Below the pieces are notes generated by a model. The model ran no database searches. It saw only the letters and a list, made by a program, of their open reading frames with translations, and was not told the DNA's origin. DNA of 64,000 nt. Origin: Antedon mediterranea (taxonomy: Eukaryota; Echinodermata; Crinoidea; Comatulida; Antedonidae). How positions within the stretch are numbered: the first letter of the stretch is position 1; each line of letters starts with the position of its first letter. Shown one piece after another: positions 350 to 51,214 of the stretch. The stretch lies in contig NC_092676.1 of the NCBI RefSeq assembly GCF_964355755.1, forward strand, positions 5,376,288 to 5,440,287. The letters are read 5' to 3'. A program made the position numbers and the translations under genes.

Positions 350-3300
350 CTGAATAATAAACAAAAATGTAAATTATTATGCTTTATAATTGTTTTTAAA
401 TCGTATTTTTGAGTATCATATTTTTTGTAGGCATTTTCAACACAAGCTTAGCTTTTTGAAAACAGTGCCTCCTTCATTTTGTATATTGTAAGAAATAATA
501 ATATTAATAACTTGTTTTTATATAGCGCCGATAAACATACATTCTCACATCACTTTACATTATACTGGGTACATCAGAGACAGCAACATTCATTTTAATA
601 AAAAAAAGCTTCTTTAAATAAATAGATTTTTAGACGGGATTAAAAAATTATTTATGCGCTATACTACATAATCTGTACATAAATCTAAATAATCTGTACA
701 TAAATCTAAATAATCTCTACATATATCTAAATAATCTCTACATATATCTACACAATCTCTACATATATCTACATAATCACATAATTCTACATAATCTCTT
801 TGCAAATCTAAAATAATCTCTATAAATCTCTACATAATCTCTATAAATTTGCATCATCTCTATAAATCTACATAATCTCTATAAATCTACACAATCTCTA
901 TAAATCTACATAATCTCTATTAATCTACATAATCTCTATAAACCTACATAATCTCTACAAAAACATATATAATCTCTACATAAATCTACATATCTCTACA
1001 TAAATCTAAATTAAATCATAAAACAAGAAACGGTAATCTCTAAATAAATCTACATAATCTCTTATAAATCTACATAATCTCTACATATCTACATAATCTC
1101 TACATAAATCTAAATAATCATAGAAACGGTAGGTACCAATGCAGTAAGGACATCTTTCTTGTTGTTCGTACGTTTCTTAACAGGCTTCGGTTTCTCTTGT
1201 ATGGCTACCTGTTTGATAGGTACCATAGATGGGTTCATTTGCATCGGTACCTGTGGCTTCAGCAGGGATTGGGGTGCTTTTGCAAGGGGTGCATTAGTCT
1301 TCTTTGTGCTTGAGGGTAGCATGTTGAGGCTTTGAGGTTTCAGGATTATTGATTGGTTAGGACGAAGGCTTACCTGTGAAAAAAGAAATTTAATAGATTA
1401 GTATACAAATAATTAAGATTATGAGTGCAATGGTACAAATAATTTCATAGAGTTAAAGATCAAGATTTTACTACTCAGAAAAATTGTGTTTTTAGATGTT
1501 CATACAAGGATTTGAACATTGGTATTGGAACCACAATCAGAGTGAAAAAAGTCACCAAAACTTTTATAACATTTTAAAATAATTCAAAATACTTATTTAA
1601 AATTGGAATTCATTTATTTATTTATTATATTTTACTGGAATCTGTGGCATTTTTCTAATTCAGTACACATTTAAAAGCACAAAATACTAAACATAAAGTT
1701 TTTTTGCGATACAAGCTTTTGAAAGAATAGTGACGATATATGCACTTACTTCGTCTCCTCCTTTTGAAAAGCGTGGTGGCATATCTCTGCTTTGCGTATT
1801 TTGACGTGTTTGACCGAAACCAGAGTTTTCTTGCGACTGACGCTGCTGGTATGACTGCGACTGACTCTGGTATTGCTGTTGCCCCTGGTTACCATACGTA
1901 GGGCTCGGGTTCTGGTTCTGTTGCCGTTGACGACCCTGGTTACCATACTGTGAGTAGTTATTACTGTAGCCTATTTGAAAATAAATAAATATAATAATTT
2001 ATATAAATCGTGGTAAATTTAACGCAGATCATGAAAGCGAAAGTGCTCGATACAAAATGTAGAGCCAAATATAAATAAATGATAAATCTGAATCTTCAGA
2101 GCCAAGCACCTGAAGATTGAGTTCATACTCATGAAACAGCCTGTAGTGCAATAAAATGTTCAGTTGGTAATTTACTAGCGTCTTTATCATTTATTTATAA
2201 TAATTTATATATATTAATTAGAAAAGAAAATATTGTAAGTTATATTTTGTACATAAATTTATGAGAAAATTGTATGAGTTATGTTTTGGCCTATGTAGTA
2301 AATAAAGAAAAAATTGGTTAATGTGACGGAGGCAGGATTTGAACCAATCATTTTGGGGAGCAAGGATGTTAACCACCAAAGCTGTTTTTTTCCGGCCTAA
2401 TGGGTGTTCCTAATGCTCGTTATTTTTGTCTTTTGTCTGTTTGTTATTTTAATGTTGAGCATCAAATACATTCATTCAATCAATCAATCATCAAGAGGTT
2501 CCCACTATTGTGTTGGTCAATAGACTCATGGTTTTCATGTATTTACCAAATGTTTAATAAATATAGTATATATATATGTACATTGATGGTGAAGAAATTT
2601 GATTTAATTTAATAAATTAATATTCATACAAATTCAGCATTTTTGTTCAAAACCTACCACCAGATTTGTATTCCGAATCTCGATTAAAATTTCGCTGACG
2701 TGTTTTTGGACTGTAACTTCCGGCTCCGTAAGGGTCAAGGTCAATCACGCCTGGACCGGTTCCGACACTGCTCCCCATTGGTCCCTGTATAAATACGTCA
2801 TTGAGACCTCCTCTTGGTTGTCCTCGTCCAAGAAATCCGCGATCTCCATTTATGCCACTAAAAAAATCGGTTTGTTTGCTTGGAATATAGATGCCCAAAT
2901 CCTGAAATATAAAATTGATTGAAGGATTTTTTCTAACTTCCAATTGGATAATTGAACATACTATGAAAGCACGAGTGGTTTTAATCGTAGGTCTGCACCT
3001 CAAGCAAAAGTCCAAGTTCAAGTCAAGGATGGAACTATTTCATTAATATAATGTTAGACTTATATAGCGCCAACTACAAACATTTTTAAACGCTTTACAT
3101 CATATTTATACAGCAGTCAACAACTTCTGTAAAGCTCTGTCTACACTATCAAAATTTATGTGACAAAAAAAATGAGGTTTTCATATATATATGGACATGA
3201 TGATGCCATATCACCACTATATTTAAGCATATCACTACCATATTTAGGCACATTACACTTTTTTTGTTTGATAGTGCAAGGGTCCCTTTGTGTCGAGCTA

Positions 3301-3992: not shown

Positions 3993-6900
3993 CCAAAGGC
4001 AAATTACTGAAAAAAATGACAATGCTGTGGGTATCAGTGGCTGGATCTCAATGGAGATACAAAAATAAAAAGCGAAAAGCTAAATCAAAACGATAAAGTA
4101 AACAGCCAGAAAAGTTAGCAGAGCTTTCGGGCAACACTAGCCCTTCATCAGTGCAAGTGAAGGAATTTGGATAACGTCATAGTATAAAGCTGGCAAGTGC
4201 TGCCTGGGTGGACAGGAAGAAAAGAAATATAACAAAGGGAGCCAGGGTGGAGTCTGAATAAGAGTGGAAAACAAAGTATATATATAATCCAAAGGCACAT
4301 TACTGAAAAAATGACAATGCTGTGGGTATCAGTGGCTGGATCTCAATGGAGATACAAAATAAAATAAGCACTGAAAAAATGACAATGCTGCGGGTATCAG
4401 TGGCTGGATCTCAATGGAGATACAAAATAAAATAAGCACTGAAAAAATGACAATGCTGTGGGTATCAGTGGCTGGATCTCAATGGAGATACAAAATAAAA
4501 TAAGCACTGAAAAAATGACAATGCTGTGGGTATCAGTGGCTGGATCTCAATGGAGATACAAAATAAAATAAGCACTGAAAAAATGACAATGCTGTGGGTA
4601 TCAGTGGCTGGATCTCAATGGAGATACAAAATAAAATAAGCACTGAAAAAATGACAATGCTGTGGGTATCAGTGACTGGATCTCAATGGAGATACAAAAT
4701 AAAATAAGCACTGAAAAAATGACAATGCTGTGGGTATCAGTGGCTGGATCTCACTGGAGATGCAAAATAAAATAAGCACTGAAAAAAATGACAATGCTGT
4801 GGGTATCAGTGGCTGGATCTCAATGGAGATGCAAAATAAAATAAGCACTGAAAAAATGACAATGCTGTGGGTATCAGTGGCTGGATCTCAATGGAGATAC
4901 AAAATAAAATAAGCACTGAAAAAATGACAATGCTGTGGGTATCAGTGGCTGGATCTCAATGGAGATACAAAATAAAATAAGCACTGAAAAAATGACAATG
5001 CTGTGGGTATCAGTGGCTGGATCTCAATGGAGATACAAAATAAAATAAGCACTGAAAAAATGACAATGCTGTGGGTATCAGTGACTGGATCTCAATGGAG
5101 ATACAAAATAAAATAAGCACTGAAAAAATGACAATGCTGTGGGTATCAGTGGCTGGATCTCACTGGAGATGCAAAATAAAATAAGCACTGAAAAAAATGA
5201 CAATGCTGTGGGTATCAGTGGCTGGATCTCAATGGAGATACAAAATAAAATAAGCACTGAAAAAATGACAATGCTGTGGGTATCAGTGGCTGGATCTCAA
5301 TGGAGATACAAAATAAAATAAGCACTGAAAAAATGACAATGCTGTGGGTATCAGTGGCTGGATCTCACTGGAGATACAAATAAAATAAGCACTGAAAAAA
5401 TGACAATGCTGTGGGTATCAGTGACTGGATCTCAATGGAGATACAAATAAAATAAGCACTGAAAAAATGACAATGCTGTGGGTATCAGTGACTGGATCTC
5501 AATAGAGATACAAAAAAAAAAAAAAGGTAAATCAAAACGATAAACTAAAACAGCCAGGAAAATATATATCAGTATATCACCGGGCGGTTTAGAATTAATG
5601 TTCTTTGCCTGTTGTGTTTATATATATATATATATAAACAAATCAGGCAAAGAACATTAATTCTAAACCGCCCGGTGATATACTGAAATTTAATTAATTA
5701 ATTTGAAACGATAAAGATGAGGAAATCTGTGAGAATGAGAAAAAGTCGCCCCAACCGAGACTCGAACTCGGACCGCCTGCTTGATATGCAGATGTCCTAA
5801 CCATTAGACCACTGGGGCTTTCATGGTATTGTTCGAACTCGATTGGATAGCGACTCTTTAACATTCTCGGCATGGTACGGCGGAACAGCACTAGTCCTCA
5901 GTTGTACGCACGCGCACCAGAGATCAAATTGATACGCCCTCATCTTACAGTATTTTTATTCACGAGGCGGGATCTCCGAAGAGCTAAGTTGTTTGTTGTA
6001 TAAATGAAAATGTATTGCATGTTCTAGGAATAGGCAATTCTTGAGGTGGTGAGGATGCGTTTCCACTTTTATGTCTTTTAAATTTCCAAATCACACTGCT
6101 TATTAGGTTTAGATTTCACATACCACGATTCTAATATAGTCTCATGTTGAACTGGGAATTTTTAAAAAACTATATCGGCCCATCTCAGTAAGTTAAACTT
6201 AATCTCAGTCTGTGCCTTCAGAGCATCTGGCCTGGCCCCAGTAGGTTATTCTATCATAGAGACTTACCTCATTGTTACGTAGCTCCAGACAGTCCTGCAA
6301 CATGAACCTAATTCTTGCCGGCAGTTCATAGTTCACCGACAGCTTATTCATCCTCTCAAAATATTGATCCATCAAGGCCTACAAAAAACATTTTTGTAAG
6401 GAAAGGTTTTGATAAAATGATTTTATGTTTAAGATGAAAATCACACTAAATCTTCCACTAATGTAATGGGGCATAAACTACTGGACTGAATTGCGCACAG
6501 GTGTGGACGAAACATACTTTCTACTCCCCCAAGGGTACCTTCATGTCGAGTGCTGCCACCAAACAGCGCATGCACACTTGGGTAACCCCTAACTCTTTCG
6601 AAAGATGTACTGGGTTCTTTAAAAGTGTACACGAGCCAGATGTGTACACTGGACCTCCAGTTTTAAGTCCTTATTCGAAAAGACTTGTTCTACCACCAGA
6701 ACAATGGTCTAGCAGTTGCTTGAACCTGTGCCGATTATATAGCCATGGTTTGCAGCAGCGCCCCTGCCTTAAATTTTAAGGAACCATTTGTGGGTGTATA
6801 AAGTTGTTTCTTACCTTGGCTTTCTTTGTATCCAGCCTGCGGCCGATAGTCTTCATTATTTGACAGAGGCATTCCAAGTCTTCTGCCCTATCAGCAATTG

Positions 6901-41071: not shown

Positions 41072-41225
41072 TTAAGCTTGGTTCCCACTAAAGACACAAC
41101 GCAACGTAAGTGATTTGACCAATCACAAGCGATGGGTTATTCGAACAGTGGCTTGTCATTGGTCAACTTGCTTGCGCTGCACGTACGTTCTAGCCGTTGT
41201 GTCTCTAGTGGGAACCACACTTTAA
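41072..41225. repeat. MITE family 3 copy
   Basis: Ends TTAAGCTTGGTTCCCACTAA and CTAGTGGGAACCACACTTTAA. Inner TTGACCAATCACAAGCGATG and GGCTTGTCATTGGTCAACTT are inverse. Confidence 0.88.
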
Positions 41226-41395: not shown

Positions 41396-42697
41396 TTGAC
41401 AACATTCAAAACTTTCCTCTTTATTTTGCTCTATATATTTCGCAAAATATCCATTTCCATCCATTTCGTTCTGATAACAAAGTTGAGAAACAAAATCATC
41501 CAGGTTCTATTATCTATGTGTGTCTTGCATCGGTTGATGGTCCCTGAATACGTTCTCAATTGTATTGCGCAATATATCCATTTCGTCCTGATGACAAACA
41601 AGACCATCCAGCAGTTTTTATTATTTATGTATTTTGTCTTGCATCCCTGACTACAATTCTCAATTGTATTTCTCAATATATCCATTTTGTCTTGATAACA
41701 AAGTTGACAAACTAGACCATCCAGCAGTTTTTATTATTTATGTGTGTCTTGCATTGGATGATGGTCCCTGAATACGTTCTCAATTGTGTTGCGCAATATA
41801 TCCATTTCGTCCTGATGACAAACAAGACCATCCAGCAGTTTTTATTATTTATGTATTTTGTCTTGCATCCCTGACTACAATTCTCAATTGTATTTCTCAA
41901 TATATCCATTTTGTCTTGATAACAAAGTTGACAAACTAGACCATCCAGCAGTTTTTATTATTTATGTATTTTGTCTTGCATTGGTTGATGGTCCTTGACT
42001 ACAATTCTCAATTGTATTTCTCAATATATCCATTTTGTCTTGATAACAAAGTTGACAAACTAGACCATCCAGCAGTTTTTATTATTTATGTATTTTGTCT
42101 TGCATTGGTTGATGGTCCTTGACTACATTTCTCAATTGTATTTCGCAATATATCCATTTCGTCTTGATAACAAAGTTGACAAACTAGACCATCCAGCAGT
42201 TTTTATTATTTATGTATTTTGTCTTGCATTGGTTGATGGTCCTTGACTACATTTCTCAATTGTATTTCGCAATATATCCATTTCATCTTGATAACAAAGT
42301 TGACAAACTAGACCATCCAGCAGTTCTATTATTTACGTATTTTGTCTTGCATTGGATGGTGGTCCTTGACTACATTTCTCAATTGTATTGCGCAATATAT
42401 CCATTTCATCTTGATAACAAAGTTGACAAACTAGACCATCCAGCAGTTCTATTATTTACATATTTTGTCTTGCATTGGATGATGGTCCTTGACTACATTT
42501 CTCAATTGTATTGCGCAATATATCCATTTCATCCTGATAACAAAGTTGACAAACTAGACCATCGAGGAGTTCTATTATTTACGTATTTTGTCTTGCATCG
42601 GTTGATGGTCCTTGACTACATTTCTCAATTGTATTTCGCAATATATCCATTTCGTCTTGATAACAAAGTTGACAAACTAGACCATCGAGGAGTTCTA
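41396..42697 (-). repeat. Tandem array of copies of the MTRF1L coding-sequence end
   Basis: About eleven units (spacing mostly 120-124 bp, two of ~104) lie directly 3' of the MTRF1L stop. On the minus strand each resembles the last ~120 bp of the CDS, from CTCCTCGATGG to ATGCAAGACAAAATACGTAAA, with the stop region. Anchors (AATATATCCATT, plus strand) fall at ~41448, 41572, 41676, 41796, 41900, 42024, 42148, 42272, 42396, 42517 and 42640; the genuine exon copy is ~42761. Units near the gene keep gene-like bases; distal ones share derived changes. The 196-residue plus-strand ORF here is an artefact of a 123-bp period. Confidence 0.93.
42202..42207 (-). terminator. MTRF1L: First canonical poly(A) signal downstream of MTRF1L
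   Basis: TTTATT on the plus strand (AATAAA on the minus) is the first such hexamer after the stop at 42698. It lies inside a CDS-derived repeat unit. Use of this site would give a ~500-nt 3' UTR holding about four repeat units. Use is inferred. Confidence 0.45.
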
Positions 42698-43071
42698 TTA
42701 TTTACGTATTTTGTCTTGCATCGGATGGTGGTCCTTGAATACATTCTCAATTGTATTGCGCAATATATCCATTTCGTCTTGATAACACAGTTCAGAAACT
42801 AAACCATCGAGGAGTTCGCCGCCGTTAAGAAATCCCTCAACGTCGAATGTATTCATTGAAATTCTATGATCCGTTATGCGATCTTGATTAAAGTTGTACG
42901 TGCGTATCTTCTCAGACCGCCCGGATGTTCCAACTTGCTGGGTACGCATCTGTTTCTCTTTCGATTCTTGCTCTTCCAGTTGTTTTTTGTAGATGCGGGC
43001 ATGGAGCATCGTCATGGCGATATGTCGGTTCTTGTGTTGTGACCGTTCTTGCTGACTTTCAGCAGATATTC
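42698..43071 (-). CDS. MTRF1L: MTRF1L terminal coding exon
   Basis: Residues 388-511: [14 protein letters not shown], the basic linker, [20 protein letters not shown] and the C-terminal helix, ending at a TAA. The stretch from [12 protein letters not shown] to the stop is the source of the downstream tandem array. It seems intact itself. Confidence 0.93.
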
Positions 43072-46000
43072 CTATGAAGTATATAAACACATTTAGTAAT
43101 ATAATTGTATATTAAAATTATATACTACTATAAATCCAAAATTACTGACAAAATGACAATGCTGTGGGTATCAGTGGCTGGATCTCAATAGAGATACAAA
43201 ATAAAATAAGCACTGAAAAAAATGACAATGCTGTGGGTATCAGTGGCTGGATCTCAATGGAGATGCAAAATAAAATAAGCATTGAAAAAAATGACAATGC
43301 TGTGGGTATTAGTGACTGGATCTCAATAGAGATGCAAAATAAAATAAGCACTGAAAAAAATGACAATGCTGTGGGTATCAGTGGCTGGTTCTCAATGGAG
43401 ATGCAAAATGAAATAAGCAATGAAAAAATGACAATGCTGTGGGTATCAGTGGCTGGTTCTCAATGGAGATGCAAAATGAAATAAGCAATGAAAAATGACA
43501 ATGCTGTGGGTATCAGTGGCTGGATCTCAATGGAGATGCAAAATAAAATAAGAAAAAAGCTAAATCAAAATGGTAAAGTAAAACAGCAAGAAAAATAGCA
43601 GAGCTTTTGGGCAACAAAAGCTTTTCATCAGTGCAAGTGAGAGTAGGTGGACAAAATAAGAATAGAATAATAAAATACATATATAATTTTATCGTTCTGA
43701 AACTTGAGTTTGAGTCGCTATTTTGAATCGGACAAAACATTAATTCGCATTTTACTTCGAACAGAACGGTAACATTTGGATTGTCTCGGTAATAGTTGTA
43801 GCCATTAACTAAAGTAACCAAGATTTGTGAAATCATTTGTTGATCACACTATGCTACAGTAGAAGTACATACATTTAACAGTAATACTGGCCCACACTCT
43901 TTTCATTGGACTTTCAAACTCGGGTAAAACAGCTTGTTCATATTCCAGCTTTGTCTACACTATCAAACTAGTTTGACAAAAAAGTGTGATGTGCCCAAAT
44001 ATGGTAGTGATATGCTTAAATATGGTAGTGATATGCTTAAATATGGTAGTGATATGCTTAAATATGGTAGTGATATGACATCATCATGTCCATATATGGG
44101 CACATCACATTTTTTTTGTTACATAAAGTTTGATAGTATAGACAGAGCAAAGTTCACTGTATACCAATATATCCATGCTTCCTGAGTTTGAAGTTGGAAA
44201 AACACTTACAAAGATAAACAAAAATTTTCAAAACTATTTAAATACAATCAGAATATTATTATAATACATATTATCATCAGACGAACGGCAAAGTTGATTA
44301 GGCTACCTGTAGGTATGTGAACAATTCTAACGGCGCTATCCGTCGTATTAACATGCTGCCCTCCTGCCCCACTAGCTTTCTTCGTTTCGATGCGAAGATC
44401 TTTTGCATCCAATTGAAGATCAATCTAAAAGGGAAAAATAGAATGATAAGTATTATTTGGTTTTTTAGGATCTGTATAGTTATTAGTTATTTACCCGGGT
44501 AAGTTTTCTTCATGGACCAATTATGGATATTTTTGGTGGTATGGGTAGATCACCAACTTATCCGGGTTAATAATTAAGCCTGAACGCACTCATACTGTTG
44601 GCTCTCCATCCATTATGGTCAGAATTTACAATGTTGCCTCTAAAATGGACAGCTTAAAAAATATATCTTTATCATTTAAGTAGTTCCATCAAAAACTTAC
44701 TCCAGGAATTTTAGCACATTTATCCCAGTAAAATCCTAATTATTTGGATGTCATCCATTACTCCCACAATCCCTTCCTCCTTGGGGATGGTTCAACTTTA
44801 GTTTAAAGCATCATGTTGATAATGGACCCCCGACTCTTAATGGGAGTGACTGTTTCAACCCTTTCCAGTACAAATGCTGTCATTTTGACACTCTGTGTGT
44901 ATGTAATCGCGCAGTAACAAAAAGTTGTATAAAAAACAATCGTACAATATTATAAATTATATATATATTATATATTATATTATGATAAAAACAAACGTAA
45001 AGAACTGCAAGGACTGTATTGTTAACCTTTTTTTACAACTAAATTTAGTTCCTAGCAATTTAATCTAACATGATTCACAGTGGGCTTAAAAAGCAAGTAC
45101 ATTAACTTAACCGCAAGGAAAAAGGTGAATTAATGTAGGCCATTCATGTGTTTATCTGTCAGAAAATAATATGAAATGAGCTCAACATTTAATACTGGTT
45201 AATAGAGATAATGGATCATAGGCTTAGGGAACTGTCCGTTAGGTGATTAATCTTGATACATACATGTACCACAAAATGTAGTAACAACCTCACAGTAAAA
45301 AAATATCTTATGGTTGATACAGGTATCTGAGAGAAGATTAACTTGTAAAAGGAGTGAATTGAATTAGAGAAGACTGACATACTGTAGAGATTAACTTATA
45401 AAGGAGTGAAGTGAGTGGACTGAATTAGAAAAGACTGACACAGATATTAACTTATAAAAGAGTGAAAGGAGTGGACTGAATTAGAAAAGACTGACATAGA
45501 GATTAACTTATAAAGGAGCGGACTGAATTAGAAAGAACTGACAAGAGATTAACTTATAAAAGAGTGAATTGGAGTGGACTGAATTAGAAAAGACTGACAG
45601 AGATTAACTTATAAAGGAGTGGACTGAATTAGAAAAGACTGACATAGAGATTAACTTATAAAGGAGTGGACTGAATTAGAAAGAACTGACAAGAGAATAA
45701 CTTATAAAAGAGTGAATTGGAGTGGACTGAATTAGAAAAGACTGACAGAGATTAACTTATAAAGGAGTGAATTGGAGTGAACTGAATTAGAAAAGACTGA
45801 CAGAGATTAACTTATAAAGGAGTGAATTGGAGTGAACTGAATTAGAAAAGACTGACAGAGATTAACTTATAAAGGAGTGAATTGGAGTGAACTGAATTAG
45901 AAAAGACTGACAGAGATTAACTTATAAAGGAGTGAATTGGAGTGAACTGAATTAGAAAAGACTGACAGAGATTAACTTATAAAGGAGTGAATTGAATTGA

Positions 46001-49000
46001 ATTGAAAAAGACTGACATAGAGATTAACTTATAAAGGAGTGAATTGGAGTGAACTGAATTAGAAAAGACTGACAGAGATTAACTTATATAGGAGTGAATT
46101 GGAGTGAACTGAATTAGAAAAGACTGACAGAGATTAACTTATAAAGGAGTGAATTGGAGTGAACTGAATTAGAAAAGACTGACATAGAGATTAACTTATA
46201 AAGGAGTGAATTGGAGTGAACTGAATTAGAAAAGACTGACATAGAGATTAACTTATAAAGGAGTGAATTGGAGTGAACTGAATTAGAAAAGACTGACAGA
46301 GATTAACTTATAAAAGAGTGAATTGGAGTGGACTGAATTAGAAAAGACTGACAGAGATTAACTTATAAAGGAGTGAATTGGAGTGAACTGAATTAGAAAA
46401 GACTGACATAGAGATTAACTTATAAAGGAGTGAATTGGAGTGAACTGAATTAGAAAAGACTGACATAGAGATTAACTTATAAAGGAGTGAATTGGAGTGG
46501 ACTGAATTAGAAAAGACTGACAGAGATTAACTTATAAAGGAGTGAATTGGAGTGAACTGAATTAGAAAAGACTGACATAGAGATTAACTTATAAAGGAGT
46601 GAATTGGAGTGAACTGAATTAGAAAAGACTGACATAGAGATTAACTTATAAAGGAGTGAATTGGAGTGAACTGAATTAGAAAAGACTGACAGAGATTAAC
46701 TTATAAAGGAGTGAATTGAAATCATCTGCAATGAGCCTAGCTACACAATTAAGTATTGATGATATTTATGTTTACCAAGAAAGTGAAGGAAAGTTATTAT
46801 TTTACGAGAAACCATGGAATAATATAAACTAGACATTAGTGAGGTTATTTGCTCAAGTTGACAAAATAAATTAAAGTTGTACGTGGATTGTTCCAATTAT
46901 GGAAATGTTTATGTTGTTATCTTTTGCCCATTTTATAGTGCCAGAAAAAAAATCAGAGAAAAATTGGTCTAATTAGTCTAATCCAGGTGGAGGTAAATGA
47001 TCAGGGGAATTTTTGTGTTTAAAGCTGCTGCCAGCTTGGAGTAACTGTACCAAAAACATACAGTAAATTTGTGGTTAACGGTACATCACCCTCTATGCCA
47101 TAATTGGTGCTCAATGATACAATAAAATCAAGTCCTCAAAAACTGAGCAAATTACAAAATACACAGAGCAACAAAGGGCACTTTGTTCAATATTTCAGCA
47201 AATATTGAAGAAACAGATACTATTGATGACCTCACAAAAGCTTATCAAAATTTTGAGTTATGAATATTCATAACTGGTCTGATGATATACTGTACCTATT
47301 TGTGGACAAAGGTAAATTGAGGAAGATAATTTGAATATTGTGGACGTTATCGTGCAAACTAACAAACAAATGTTCCAAGCAAGTGAAAGATACTGGGCAT
47401 TCTGCCAAGTAATAATCTGTACTTAAGTTTGGTCCTTGAATGATGTTATTTCCTAAAAATAATCATGTATATATTTAACTCATGTACAAATCTCTCTAAG
47501 CTGTTTTTGTTTTAGAGTGATTCTTTAATGATTTAGGGAATTCCCCTTTTAGTTACCAGTCTCTTGAAATAATAATAGTTGTTTGCTTAATATTAGCAGT
47601 CACAATGAATGATTTTAATTTTAACAGAAAGAAAAACCTGAAAATAATTTAACCTGTTTCGGCTGCGGTAGTACAGCCACTGTCATCGTGCTTGTATGAA
47701 CTCGGCCAGATTTTTCTGTTTTCGGAATTCGTTGAACGCGATGAACACCGCCCTCGTATTTCATCAGTTTGTATACATCTGGACCTTGCATGCTTACACT
47801 GGCATGTCGCACACCACCTGGAAATAGAAATATATACATCTTATAAAGAAGACTTGTTCACAAGCATGATAATTGTTCCAATTGTTTAAAATTAAAGCCT
47901 ACTCGAAGGAGTCTTAAAACAGTCTTAAACCTCACTTTTTGTTGCTTTTACGTATTATTTATCGTCAAAGACAACCAATTGAACGAGTTTTAAGTGTTAA
48001 ATCAAATAATAACGGTGATTTTATTCTTATATAGGCCTAGAATAGATTTTCTTGTGTAGAAATGTACGTACTGTTATGATTGTGAATTGAACAAGCGTGA
48101 CGAACATTACCTTATTTGGTATTCTACGCGCAAAGTACGCCCTAAATTTGTTACTTTACGCGGTCTTATCTAAGACTGTTTTATATTAATGGTCTAACAG
48201 GGGTGGCTTTAGTAACACCGTCTATCTGATAAAGCCGGCTTTAATCGGGTAGTTAAGACCATCAGTTAAGATTGTTTTATAGCAATCCGCCCCGGGTATA
48301 ATCTCATTGGGGTATTGGAGACTGCTTCTTTTTTTATATTTCCTGTGTTTTCAATCTCAGTGGTGCAGGATTTCAAAGATGTCCTACCCTTTTTGAATAG
48401 TGTACCAAGTTCTCAAATGTGCACTATATACACAGGCTTTACGTCTCATCCGAAGGATAGAGGCAATAAATAAATGTGTATTGCCCTTTAACACTAACAG
48501 TGTTCCACTTTTAAGTATCTCTATGATGATATCAATGGCATTTTCAATGAAATGGAGATATGTGTTTATGTGATTACCATGGCGCAGGGATGAAAACAAT
48601 AAGATGAACTATGGAATGTATTAATTATTTAAAATGAGACACACCACGACGGGTTCAGATGTCTTTTAGTTGTACCAGGACAACAACATGGATTATTTAT
48701 TTATTTATTCAACTTTATTTTACAAGGGTAGTTCTAACAGTACTACAGCAGTACAGCTGACTTGAAGAGGCCGTCTTAAAAACAATACAACAAAATATAC
48801 AGACGACATTCAAAGATAAAGATACATGAGGATCATAGTTAGAATTCTCAGACAGATTAAAAATGTTAAAATTCGTTAAAAAATAAAGGAAATTGGTACC
48901 AAATATTGCTTTTATTATTGCTTATCTTTGAGATGTATTATTATTATTATAAAAGTTGGTTTTAAAATCAGAATATTGCATTTAAAAGGGAGAGAATTAA

Positions 49001-51000
49001 GAAAGGAAGTGGCTCTGTAATAAAAAGTAATTTTGAAGAACTGAAGATTAGTTATGTTTAGTGTCCCAGACATCAGACAAGTGGAATCGCTCATGCCTGC
49101 TTTAATGTTTGAACGCTTATTCTATGGGACACGTTGCATTTGGACATTTAATATCTTTTTACTACAAATATATGAATTCTTGATTCTGTTAGTATATTTT
49201 TAAAATATCGTCAAAACTTACCCAAGTCACTTACAGTGTATGCCAAAGTATTAAACCTCCACCTTTTGAACTGAGCATAATTCTGGTACATGTTAAATAC
49301 ATCGGATGTAAACAGCATGGCTTCTTGACCTCCGACCCCTGCTGTTAGCTCAACAACGATGTCATTGTCATCAATTTCACTGGTTGGTTTTAATTCAGAT
49401 ACAAGCTAAATAAAATAAAAATATTGTAAATATTATCAATCAATTCTTACATATATATAGTTTAATGATTTTTTTTCAAACGGTGTAATTGAAGCGGTGC
49501 AATCAAAGTGGTACAGTTGAATAAGCAGTGCAGTTGAATATGTAATTTAATTTTAATTATCACTGTATAATACTTGGATAAATCTTTGACTATAGAATAA
49601 AATAAGCATTAAATATACATCATTATCATATCAAACCTCATCTTCCAATTCTTCTATAGCATTTAAGCAATTCTTCTTTTCAACTTGCGCTAACCGTTGC
49701 ATTTCTGGATCATCATCTGAAAAAACAAAAGTACACATTCTTTGATATTATTATATAGAAACTAATGTAATGTGCCCATATATGAACATGATGATGTCAT
49801 ATCACTACCATAGTTGGGCATATCACTACCATATTTAGGCATGTCACTACCATCGAGGTACTTCACACTTTTTTTTGTCGAACTAGTTTGATAGTGTACA
49901 CAGAGCTTTAGAAGCTAATGATGTTTGGCAACTACATTTTAAACTACTATACTACGGAACATGCATCCAGTGCATTTAGGATAATGGTACCGGTTCAGAG
50001 AAATACACACTGTACTGGAGCGTTTAACAAAATATTTGAGATGAGGTCTACAGTATGTAACCAATAGTAATACTAAATTAATTAATTAATTAATTATTAA
50101 TATTAAAAGATAATTAATTATTGGTTGGGTGAAAGGCTTTAATATATACTTCACCAACAACTGGAATAAATTGAAGGCCCCTATGTGTTTCTACTGTACT
50201 ACTCTGCCTAACACAAAGCACGATTTTTGTTTTCTTAAAGGGATACAATCCAATATTATTAATCTACAAATTATCGGAAGATTTGACTAGGCCAGGGAAG
50301 AGTGAAATTACAATTACAATCCCTGACTAGACCAAACGACTTAGTTTGACTAATTTTTGTGAATAAGGTTTTACACTTCTTCACCTTCTAGTAACGACTT
50401 GACATCTTCCAATTCTAACTTTTTCGCATTTAATTCTTGAATCTTTTCAACAACTGGTTCTAGTTTTTGTCTCCTCTTTACGATCTTCTGCTGTTCTATC
50501 TCATCACCAACCCCAGAGCTTAGTTTTTGTGAGATGTCAGCAAACTCTTTTAATAATTCTTCTAAATAAAACAGGAATTGAGGACTGTCTGGTGCAAGTA
50601 CATCTGTTTCTGTTGTACTACCATTTGAACAAATATATCTATAATTAACTTCGCAGTTTAACAAATTAGTTCTGGCAAAATTTGGATGCAAAGTTTGTTT
50701 TCTAGGAATGGATATCATCGGGAAAGACTTAAATGTCTTCCATACACATTTCCTTCTGGTTAAAGGTAAAATTATGGGAAACCTGCTTGAAAATTCTGGT
50801 TTTACAAAATTGCATTTATTTGTTAGTGGGTTCTGACAGTAGTATCGAAATTGTTGGGAAAACCAGCAATGGTTGTAATTGTTTTTACTGCAAGATTTTA
50901 AAGCAGGCAATAGCTTTGACGACACGGATGTCATAACATTTCTTGCATTGTATTGTAGGATACACCGCAATGTCTTCCATGTATAGCGAGTCACACACAT
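42698..51000 (-). CDS. MTRF1L: Mitochondrial peptide chain release factor 1-like (mtRF1a)
   Basis: Class I release factor that reads UAA/UAG on mitochondrial ribosomes and hydrolyses peptidyl-tRNA (family role). CDS exons, minus strand: 51000-50385, 49716-49637, 49405-49222, 47817-47654, 44424-44307, 43071-42698; phases agree, 511 residues, TAA. Motifs: [23 protein letters not shown], codon-recognition tripeptide PKT (325-327), [14 protein letters not shown], catalytic [17 protein letters not shown] (GGQ 369-371), [10 protein letters not shown] and DHRI. The PKT region has no insertion, unlike MTRF1, so MTRF1L fits best. The N-terminus is ~100 residues longer than usual; the first ~140 are Arg/Lys/Asn/Ser-rich and could carry a mitochondrial presequence. 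The ATG at 51000 is 19 bases after an acceptor (CATTTCAG), so an upstream noncoding exon is likely. Confidence 0.95.
43150..43650 (+). repeat. Second expansion of the 68-bp minisatellite, in an MTRF1L intron
   Basis: Six units (GACAATG at 43155, 43224, 43293, 43362, 43429, 43497) are preceded by AAATCCAAAATTACTGA. They are followed by the same flank as at 4080-4160 (GCTAAATCAAAATGGTAAAG, CAGAGCTTTTGGGCAAC, CATCAGTGCAAGTGA). The units differ more from each other than those at 4.3-5.5 kb. Confidence 0.92.
43947..44148. repeat. MITE family 2 copy with fourfold internal repeat
   Basis: Ends AGCTTTGTCTACACTATCAA and TTTGATAGTATAGACAGAGC. Inside, AAATATGGTAGTGATATG is repeated about four times in tandem. 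It lies between MTRF1L exons 5 and 6. Confidence 0.88.
44307..44424 (-). CDS. MTRF1L: MTRF1L exon with catalytic GGQ
   Basis: Encodes residues 349-387: [18 protein letters not shown], the peptidyl-tRNA hydrolysis loop, then [12 protein letters not shown]. It follows CCCTTTTAG and ends ACAG|GTAGCC. All GGQ-loop residues expected in an active factor are present. Confidence 0.95.
44425..47653 (-). other. MTRF1L: MTRF1L intron 4 with 55-57-bp minisatellite
   Basis: From ~45330 to ~46720 the intron is a tandem array: AGAGATTAACTTATAAAGGA, GTGAATTGGAGTGAACTGAA, TTAGAAAAGACTGAC, with or without AT. There are about 24 units; early ones (45330-45700) are shorter and more varied. The rest of the intron is AT-rich with no recognised feature. 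Confidence 0.9.
47818..49221 (-). other. MTRF1L: MTRF1L intron 3
   Basis: No exon or MITE was recognised. It holds a short piece near 48440-48470 (GCTTTACGTCTCATCCGAAG), and around 48690-48780 a TTATTTATTTATTCAACTTT stretch that looks like a SINE/LINE tail. Otherwise AT-rich. Confidence 0.5.
49768..49910. repeat. MITE family 2 fragment in MTRF1L intron 1
   Basis: ATGTGCCCATATATGAACAT, three CACTACCATA motifs and the end TAGTTTGATAGTGTACACAG identify the family. The left end is lost. The rest of the intron (49717-50384) shows nothing else apart from TTAA repeats. Confidence 0.75.
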
Positions 51001-51214
51001 ATTAATTAGTTGACTGTCTCTGAAATGCAAATTGAAAAGTCATTTATAATAATTATTTATAAAAGTATTCGGTAGTAAAATGATGCCACACATTGTCAGA
51101 ATATTTTCCTTATTAATTATTTTATTTTATAGATATTTGGCCATATTATATATAAATGCATCGATATTTAATAATATAATATTTATTGCAAATGATGGTG
51201 TAGGCCTAGAGGCT

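Follow-up and report, generated by a model that had tools for sequence, protein, structure and literature searches.

How does the end of a conserved coding exon come to be followed by a row of near-copies of itself, and what would such a row mean for the protein whose end it repeats? The question is raised by a window of the Antedon mediterranea genome (the whole stretch of 64,000 nucleotides analysed here), in which a gene of the MTRF1L type, running on the minus strand to its TAA stop (42700-42698), is followed by a tandem array. The features of both are collected in Table 1.

Table 1. Coordinates, in the window, of the release-factor gene and of the array beyond its stop codon.
Feature	Position	Strand	Remarks
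Last coding exon, MTRF1L-type gene	42698..43071	-	RF-1 domain end and C-terminal tail; Pfam RF-1 E 2.7e-18
GGQ exon (GAGGQHVN), same gene, upstream	44307..44424	-	Pfam RF-1 E 5.3e-17; ends by eye
Upstream exon, PCRF domain end	47654..47818 (ends approximate)	-	PCRF E 1.9e-19
Upstream exon, PCRF domain	49223..49405 (ends approximate)	-	PCRF E 3.8e-16
Probable 5' exon	50371..51039	-	Open frame with an N-terminal extension; PCRF start weak (E 0.0032)
u00, unit copy within the exon	42696..42817	-	122 bp; final 39 codons, the stop codon and two further bases
u01-u10, ten tandem units 3' of the stop	41508..42695	-	Gene orientation; 110-124 bp
u11, decayed outermost copy	41434..41507 (start about)	-	First ~74 bp recognisable
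Second-order repeat, two 224-bp blocks	41501..41948	-	u07+u08 and u09+u10; 97% identical
Six AATAAA at unit junctions	41617..42207	-	Putative poly(A) signals

Searched exon by exon, the gene shows PCRF and RF-1 domains and the GGQ motif, all of which it shares with MTRF1L (mtRF1a), a mitochondrial class I release factor; the PCRF match of the probable 5' exon reaches 17.7 bits, below the cut-off of 24 bits. The last exon joins the donor after 44307 (splice ends set by eye), and its best solved match is the MTRF1L chain 7nqh_BL (96 bits, E 2e-26), against 86.1 bits for MTRF1, a comparison made with the last exon alone. Relative to 7nqh_BL (362 residues), the gene has 27 residues past the last aligned one, where 15 of 7nqh_BL remain. 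The MTRF1 alignment reaches 7 residues further along the C-terminus, and the bacterial RF1 chains 5j4d_JA and 6boh_JA align to 8 residues or fewer from the gene's end. A second locus of the RF-1 family is present in the genome (contig C3:5154457-5155408), in two pieces, one of them below the cut-off and containing a TAA.

A 123-bp period array was detected by TRF at 41868-42817 (96% matches, score 1593), together with a 246-bp period row at 41459-42816, and a separate repeat search gave the same unit register. Cut by hand, u01-u10 measure 123, 123, 123, 124, 124, 124, 113, 111, 113, and 110 bp, the border between u10 and u11 shifting by up to 3 bp between analyses. They are head-to-tail copies of one unit, as in a minisatellite (unit about 10-100+ bp), and the alignment of all units gives 86-93% identity to the exon for u01-u10, so that units unrelated to the exon, the outcome that would have undone the sequence-only reading, can be set aside. 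The outermost stretch, u11, is a real eleventh copy. Its local score against the exon is 75.5, the maximum of 500 shuffles being 42.5, and a DNA search of the genome retrieves it with a 45-bp match (E 9.2e-7); it carries a 2-bp deletion and a 10-bp insertion, and past ~74 bp the likeness is weak. The initial estimate of about eleven ~123-bp units matching the exon end is right if u11 is counted, although the distal units are shorter. On the opposite strand, an antisense open frame of 204 aa (42188-42802, +) crosses part of the array; such frames can arise in arrays whose period is divisible by three, provided that one of the frames has no stops.

Alignment with solved release factors does not stop at the RF-1 domain but extends into the exon's own unit, up to its 12th residue in the alignment with MTRF1L and its 19th with MTRF1. 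Among the 41 matches listed, bacterial RF1 (5j4d_JA and 6boh_JA) aligns to the 31st residue of the unit, and the RF2 alignments end before it or just inside it. It is the exon, and not the array, that continues into known release factors, which means that the array was copied from the gene. The unit itself lies at one locus in the genome searched: a single-unit DNA query gave 12 matches, all of them here (the exon copy, u01-u10, and u11), the 14 matches to a protein query with the C-terminus (E up to 10) also fell at this locus, and the full array as query found one genomic place. A genome such as the one searched can have gaps, and the single locus holds for the sequence searched. A dispersed repeat captured by the gene was also considered and rejected, because the unit matched one locus in that sequence. 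Derivation of the array from the end of the MTRF1L-type exon is thus supported by comparison of the sequences, and the best explanation as a whole, to which we give a probability of about 0.85, is a local duplication of the exon end followed by amplification into a minisatellite.

How the units came to their present order is seen in their differences. The further out the units lie, the more they differ from the exon, from 6.6% in u01 to 13.8% in u10 (Spearman 0.91, p 2e-4, over u01-u10), which bears out the expected outward increase in divergence, and distances among units follow their positions with the gene included (Mantel r 0.66, p 1e-4) or left out (0.57, p 5e-4). The maximum likelihood (ML) tree has the shape of a ladder that mostly follows the order of the units along the DNA. 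Gradient and ladder would fit a stepwise growth free of gene conversion, in which new units are copied on the gene side and older ones pushed outward, but we consider this unlikely as the whole account. Ultrafast support for the ladder nodes is 51-69% when u11 is left out and 25-48% when it is included, and u08 and u10 are devoid of a +1 insertion common to u01-u07 and u09, that is, to units closer to the gene (the exon lacks it too). Besides, u01 and u02 bear differences from the exon that are shared through the array, so neither is a fresh copy of the whole exon unit: at positions 16 and 23 the exon groups with u11 (T16, C23) as opposed to u01-u10, and at positions 25 and 30 it differs from all other copies with a base there (position 30 is deleted in u08 and u10). 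The earlier proposal of either stepwise growth or conversion with the exon keeps its outward gradient; a plain ladder is weak, and exchange is suggested but unproven.

The variants named in the sequence-only reading are distributed in part as it stated. The motif CGAGGAG is found in the exon, u01, and u02, and CCAGCAG in u03-u10, in agreement with the proximal and distal variants that had been named. The other named pair divides the array less cleanly, with TTTACGTAT in the exon, u01, and u03, TTTATGTAT in u04-u07 and u09, but TTTACATAT in u02 and, in u08 and u10, a form altered by a 3-bp deletion in place of the TTTACGTAT and TTTATGTAT types. That the distal variants are the derived ones is doubtful. 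Position 9 is C in the exon, u01, and u02 and G in u03-u11 (a synonymous difference in the gene), so that the decayed outermost copy has the "distal" base, and position 6 of u11 is ambiguous owing to its 2-bp gap. CGAGGAG may equally be a newer state of the gene, found in u01 and u02. Evidence against u11 as an outgroup comes from T18 and G39, common to u11 and u08/u10 (G39 is in u02 too), and from the ML tree including u11, which places it beside u08/u10 (32% support) and not outside all units.

Conflict among sites suggests, as far as the alignment can tell, that the units exchange sequence. The four-gamete test finds conflict in 52 of the 153 informative pairs of sites, a number reached by 2 of 1000 simulations free of exchange on the ML tree (mean 7.7). 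When branches were lengthened 1.5-fold (500 simulations) the mean rose to 19.8 and the maximum to 103, so homoplasy may be a cause of the conflicts, and compatible sites did not cluster in a PHI-like test (p 0.67). The clearest recent event is the pair of 224-bp blocks (97%), in which u07 and u09 are identical.

On the preferred reading, the array would have begun with a local tandem duplication of the ~122 bp at the end of the last MTRF1L coding exon, the stop codon among them. An outer copy, u11, perhaps the oldest, would have lost constraint and decayed, and an inner copy would have acquired the changes specific to the array and been amplified via replication slippage or unequal exchange, the latest amplification probably being the two-unit step of 224 bp (u07+u08, u09+u10). 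Units probably swap sequence with their neighbours, and the gene-adjacent ones perhaps with the exon too; we propose that proximal units remain more gene-like as a result of this exchange. The array would then sit in the 3'-UTR or just downstream, leaving the gene's open frame intact, and it is most likely without function and presumably neutral.

Is the end of the protein at risk? Because the gene's open frame stops within u00, none of the extra units belongs to it and the array is not a coding tandem repeat. In most units the frame is lost, through the +1 insertion in eight of the ten and an 11-bp deletion in u07 and u09. Read in the gene's frame, eight of the ten have a stop near the same place: u01-u06 keep, or nearly keep, a stretch of 24 residues followed by a frameshifted tail of similar length, and u08 and u10 retain the tail in frame. 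The remaining two, u07 and u09, lack a stop and continue into the next unit, in frames that stay open for 80 and 99 residues. One TAA appears in the protein match of u08, and by its coordinates it is the stop just before that unit. Judging from these frames, a swap between the exon and any of these eight units would change chiefly the final ~15 residues, and one with u07 or u09 would give a longer protein. The earlier concern about the C-terminus was consequently overstated in part, given the stop inside u00 and those in eight of ten units. The array is probably tolerated because the last residues fall outside the aligned MTRF1L and MTRF1 homology.

Between units and gene, synonymous substitutions are in excess (7 of 11 units reach p below 0.05, one-sided; in u08 they are 9 of 15, with an expected share of 0.19-0.22). 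This could hint at constraint on the units, though the gene's own synonymous changes would leave the same mark. Constraint pinned on u08 and u10 was rejected, as the excess appears in 7 of 11 units, some of them frameshifted, and is not theirs alone. An idea that arose post hoc is that the array is a reservoir of alternative release-factor ends, the u08/u10 type having once been, or potentially becoming by exchange, a working C-terminus. These two units have 9 and 3 bp as their sole indels before the stop and the same stop codon, and their tails are 83-85% identical to the gene as protein, with many synonymous differences; we consider the idea very improbable. Nearly as little credit goes to a role in 3'-end formation, with the AATAAA of the distal units serving as a ladder of alternative MTRF1L poly(A) sites. 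Six of them begin at 42207, 42083, 41959, 41846, 41735, and 41622 (one more is at 41425), the first starts 491 nt beyond the stop, and neither AATAAA nor ATTAAA occurs in the 490 nt between. However, a single G-to-A change (AATAGA to AATAAA) suffices at the A-rich junction, the window is AT-rich (GC 32.5%), and the weaker variants AATAGA and AATACA sit closer to the stop. As for the assembly, blocks of 224 bp that are 97% alike, with u07 equal to u09, are what an artefact might leave, and the two-unit step could be miscounted. Most other pairs of units differ by several per cent and have private indels, though, and the contig carrying the array spans at least 29 Mb, judging from match positions, so that we hold an artefactual array to be highly unlikely.

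The surroundings are rich in arrays. TRF arrays with a period of 40 or more make up 10.6% of the window (9 blocks, this one included) and 11.7% of 100 kb elsewhere (15 blocks), the latter being ten 10-kb stretches from ten other contigs, all taken at one fixed coordinate and not at random, of which two hold about five sixths of the array DNA and four none. With mid-length arrays at ~11-12% of the sequence, it is unsurprising that one should somewhere include an exon end. A ~69-bp unit (AAAATGACAATGCTGTGGGTATCAGTGGC...) forms arrays at 4302-5520 and 43150-43552, the second in an MTRF1L intron. Unlike the exon unit with its one locus, it has arrays on many contigs (at least 233 matches when 40 of the 1295 candidates were scored), and may be a minisatellite that is mobile or carried by a transposon. 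Another array, of 55-bp units (22-25 copies), lies at 45348-46718 within an MTRF1L intron. By eye, we also recognised two similar short elements (about 43950-44147 and 49765-49905) with 21-bp repeats (GTGATATGCTTAAATATGGTA) flanked by terminal inverted stretches like CTACACTATCAAACT, probably a MITE family; a 21-bp repeat of related sequence occurs at 3207-3250. Also by eye, an inverted-repeat element with GGTTCCCACTARAGACACAACG at its ends (41080-41216), probably a MITE too, was seen a short way downstream of the array.

Similar arrangements have been described. Human segmental-duplication genes have internal tandem repeats in last coding exons (Genome Biol 2009 10:R137, PMC2812944), with units of minisatellite length made from gene sequence (63-228 bp in one class), and seven of the seven frame-shifting cases given there fall in the last coding exon and extend the protein end. 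The human repeats, as that article presents them, lie within the coding sequence of recent paralogs, whereas here all extra units are past the stop and one MTRF1L-type locus was found. A review (PMC5615363) treats satellites and minisatellites seeded from rDNA spacers or transposons through local amplification, unequal crossing-over, and homogenisation. Our array resembles those it describes in that borrowed sequence is amplified locally, with unequal crossing-over and homogenisation, and differs from them in its source, the end of a coding exon still attached to its gene, and in being small and in one place. Among the open-access matches listed, no title or abstract opening mentions an MTRF1L-derived array or such an arrangement. 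The locus adds a case to a kind already known, that of minisatellites arising from a local tandem duplication; the mechanism is ordinary, and the array is a real but ordinary local repeat. It is nevertheless a clear case of a minisatellite born from a gene with an open frame, and the seed, being still attached, is a reference for reading the decay of the units and the exchange among them. If arrays in related species prove to be shorter or longer, this locus would reveal how such arrays begin and whether they return changes to a conserved gene.
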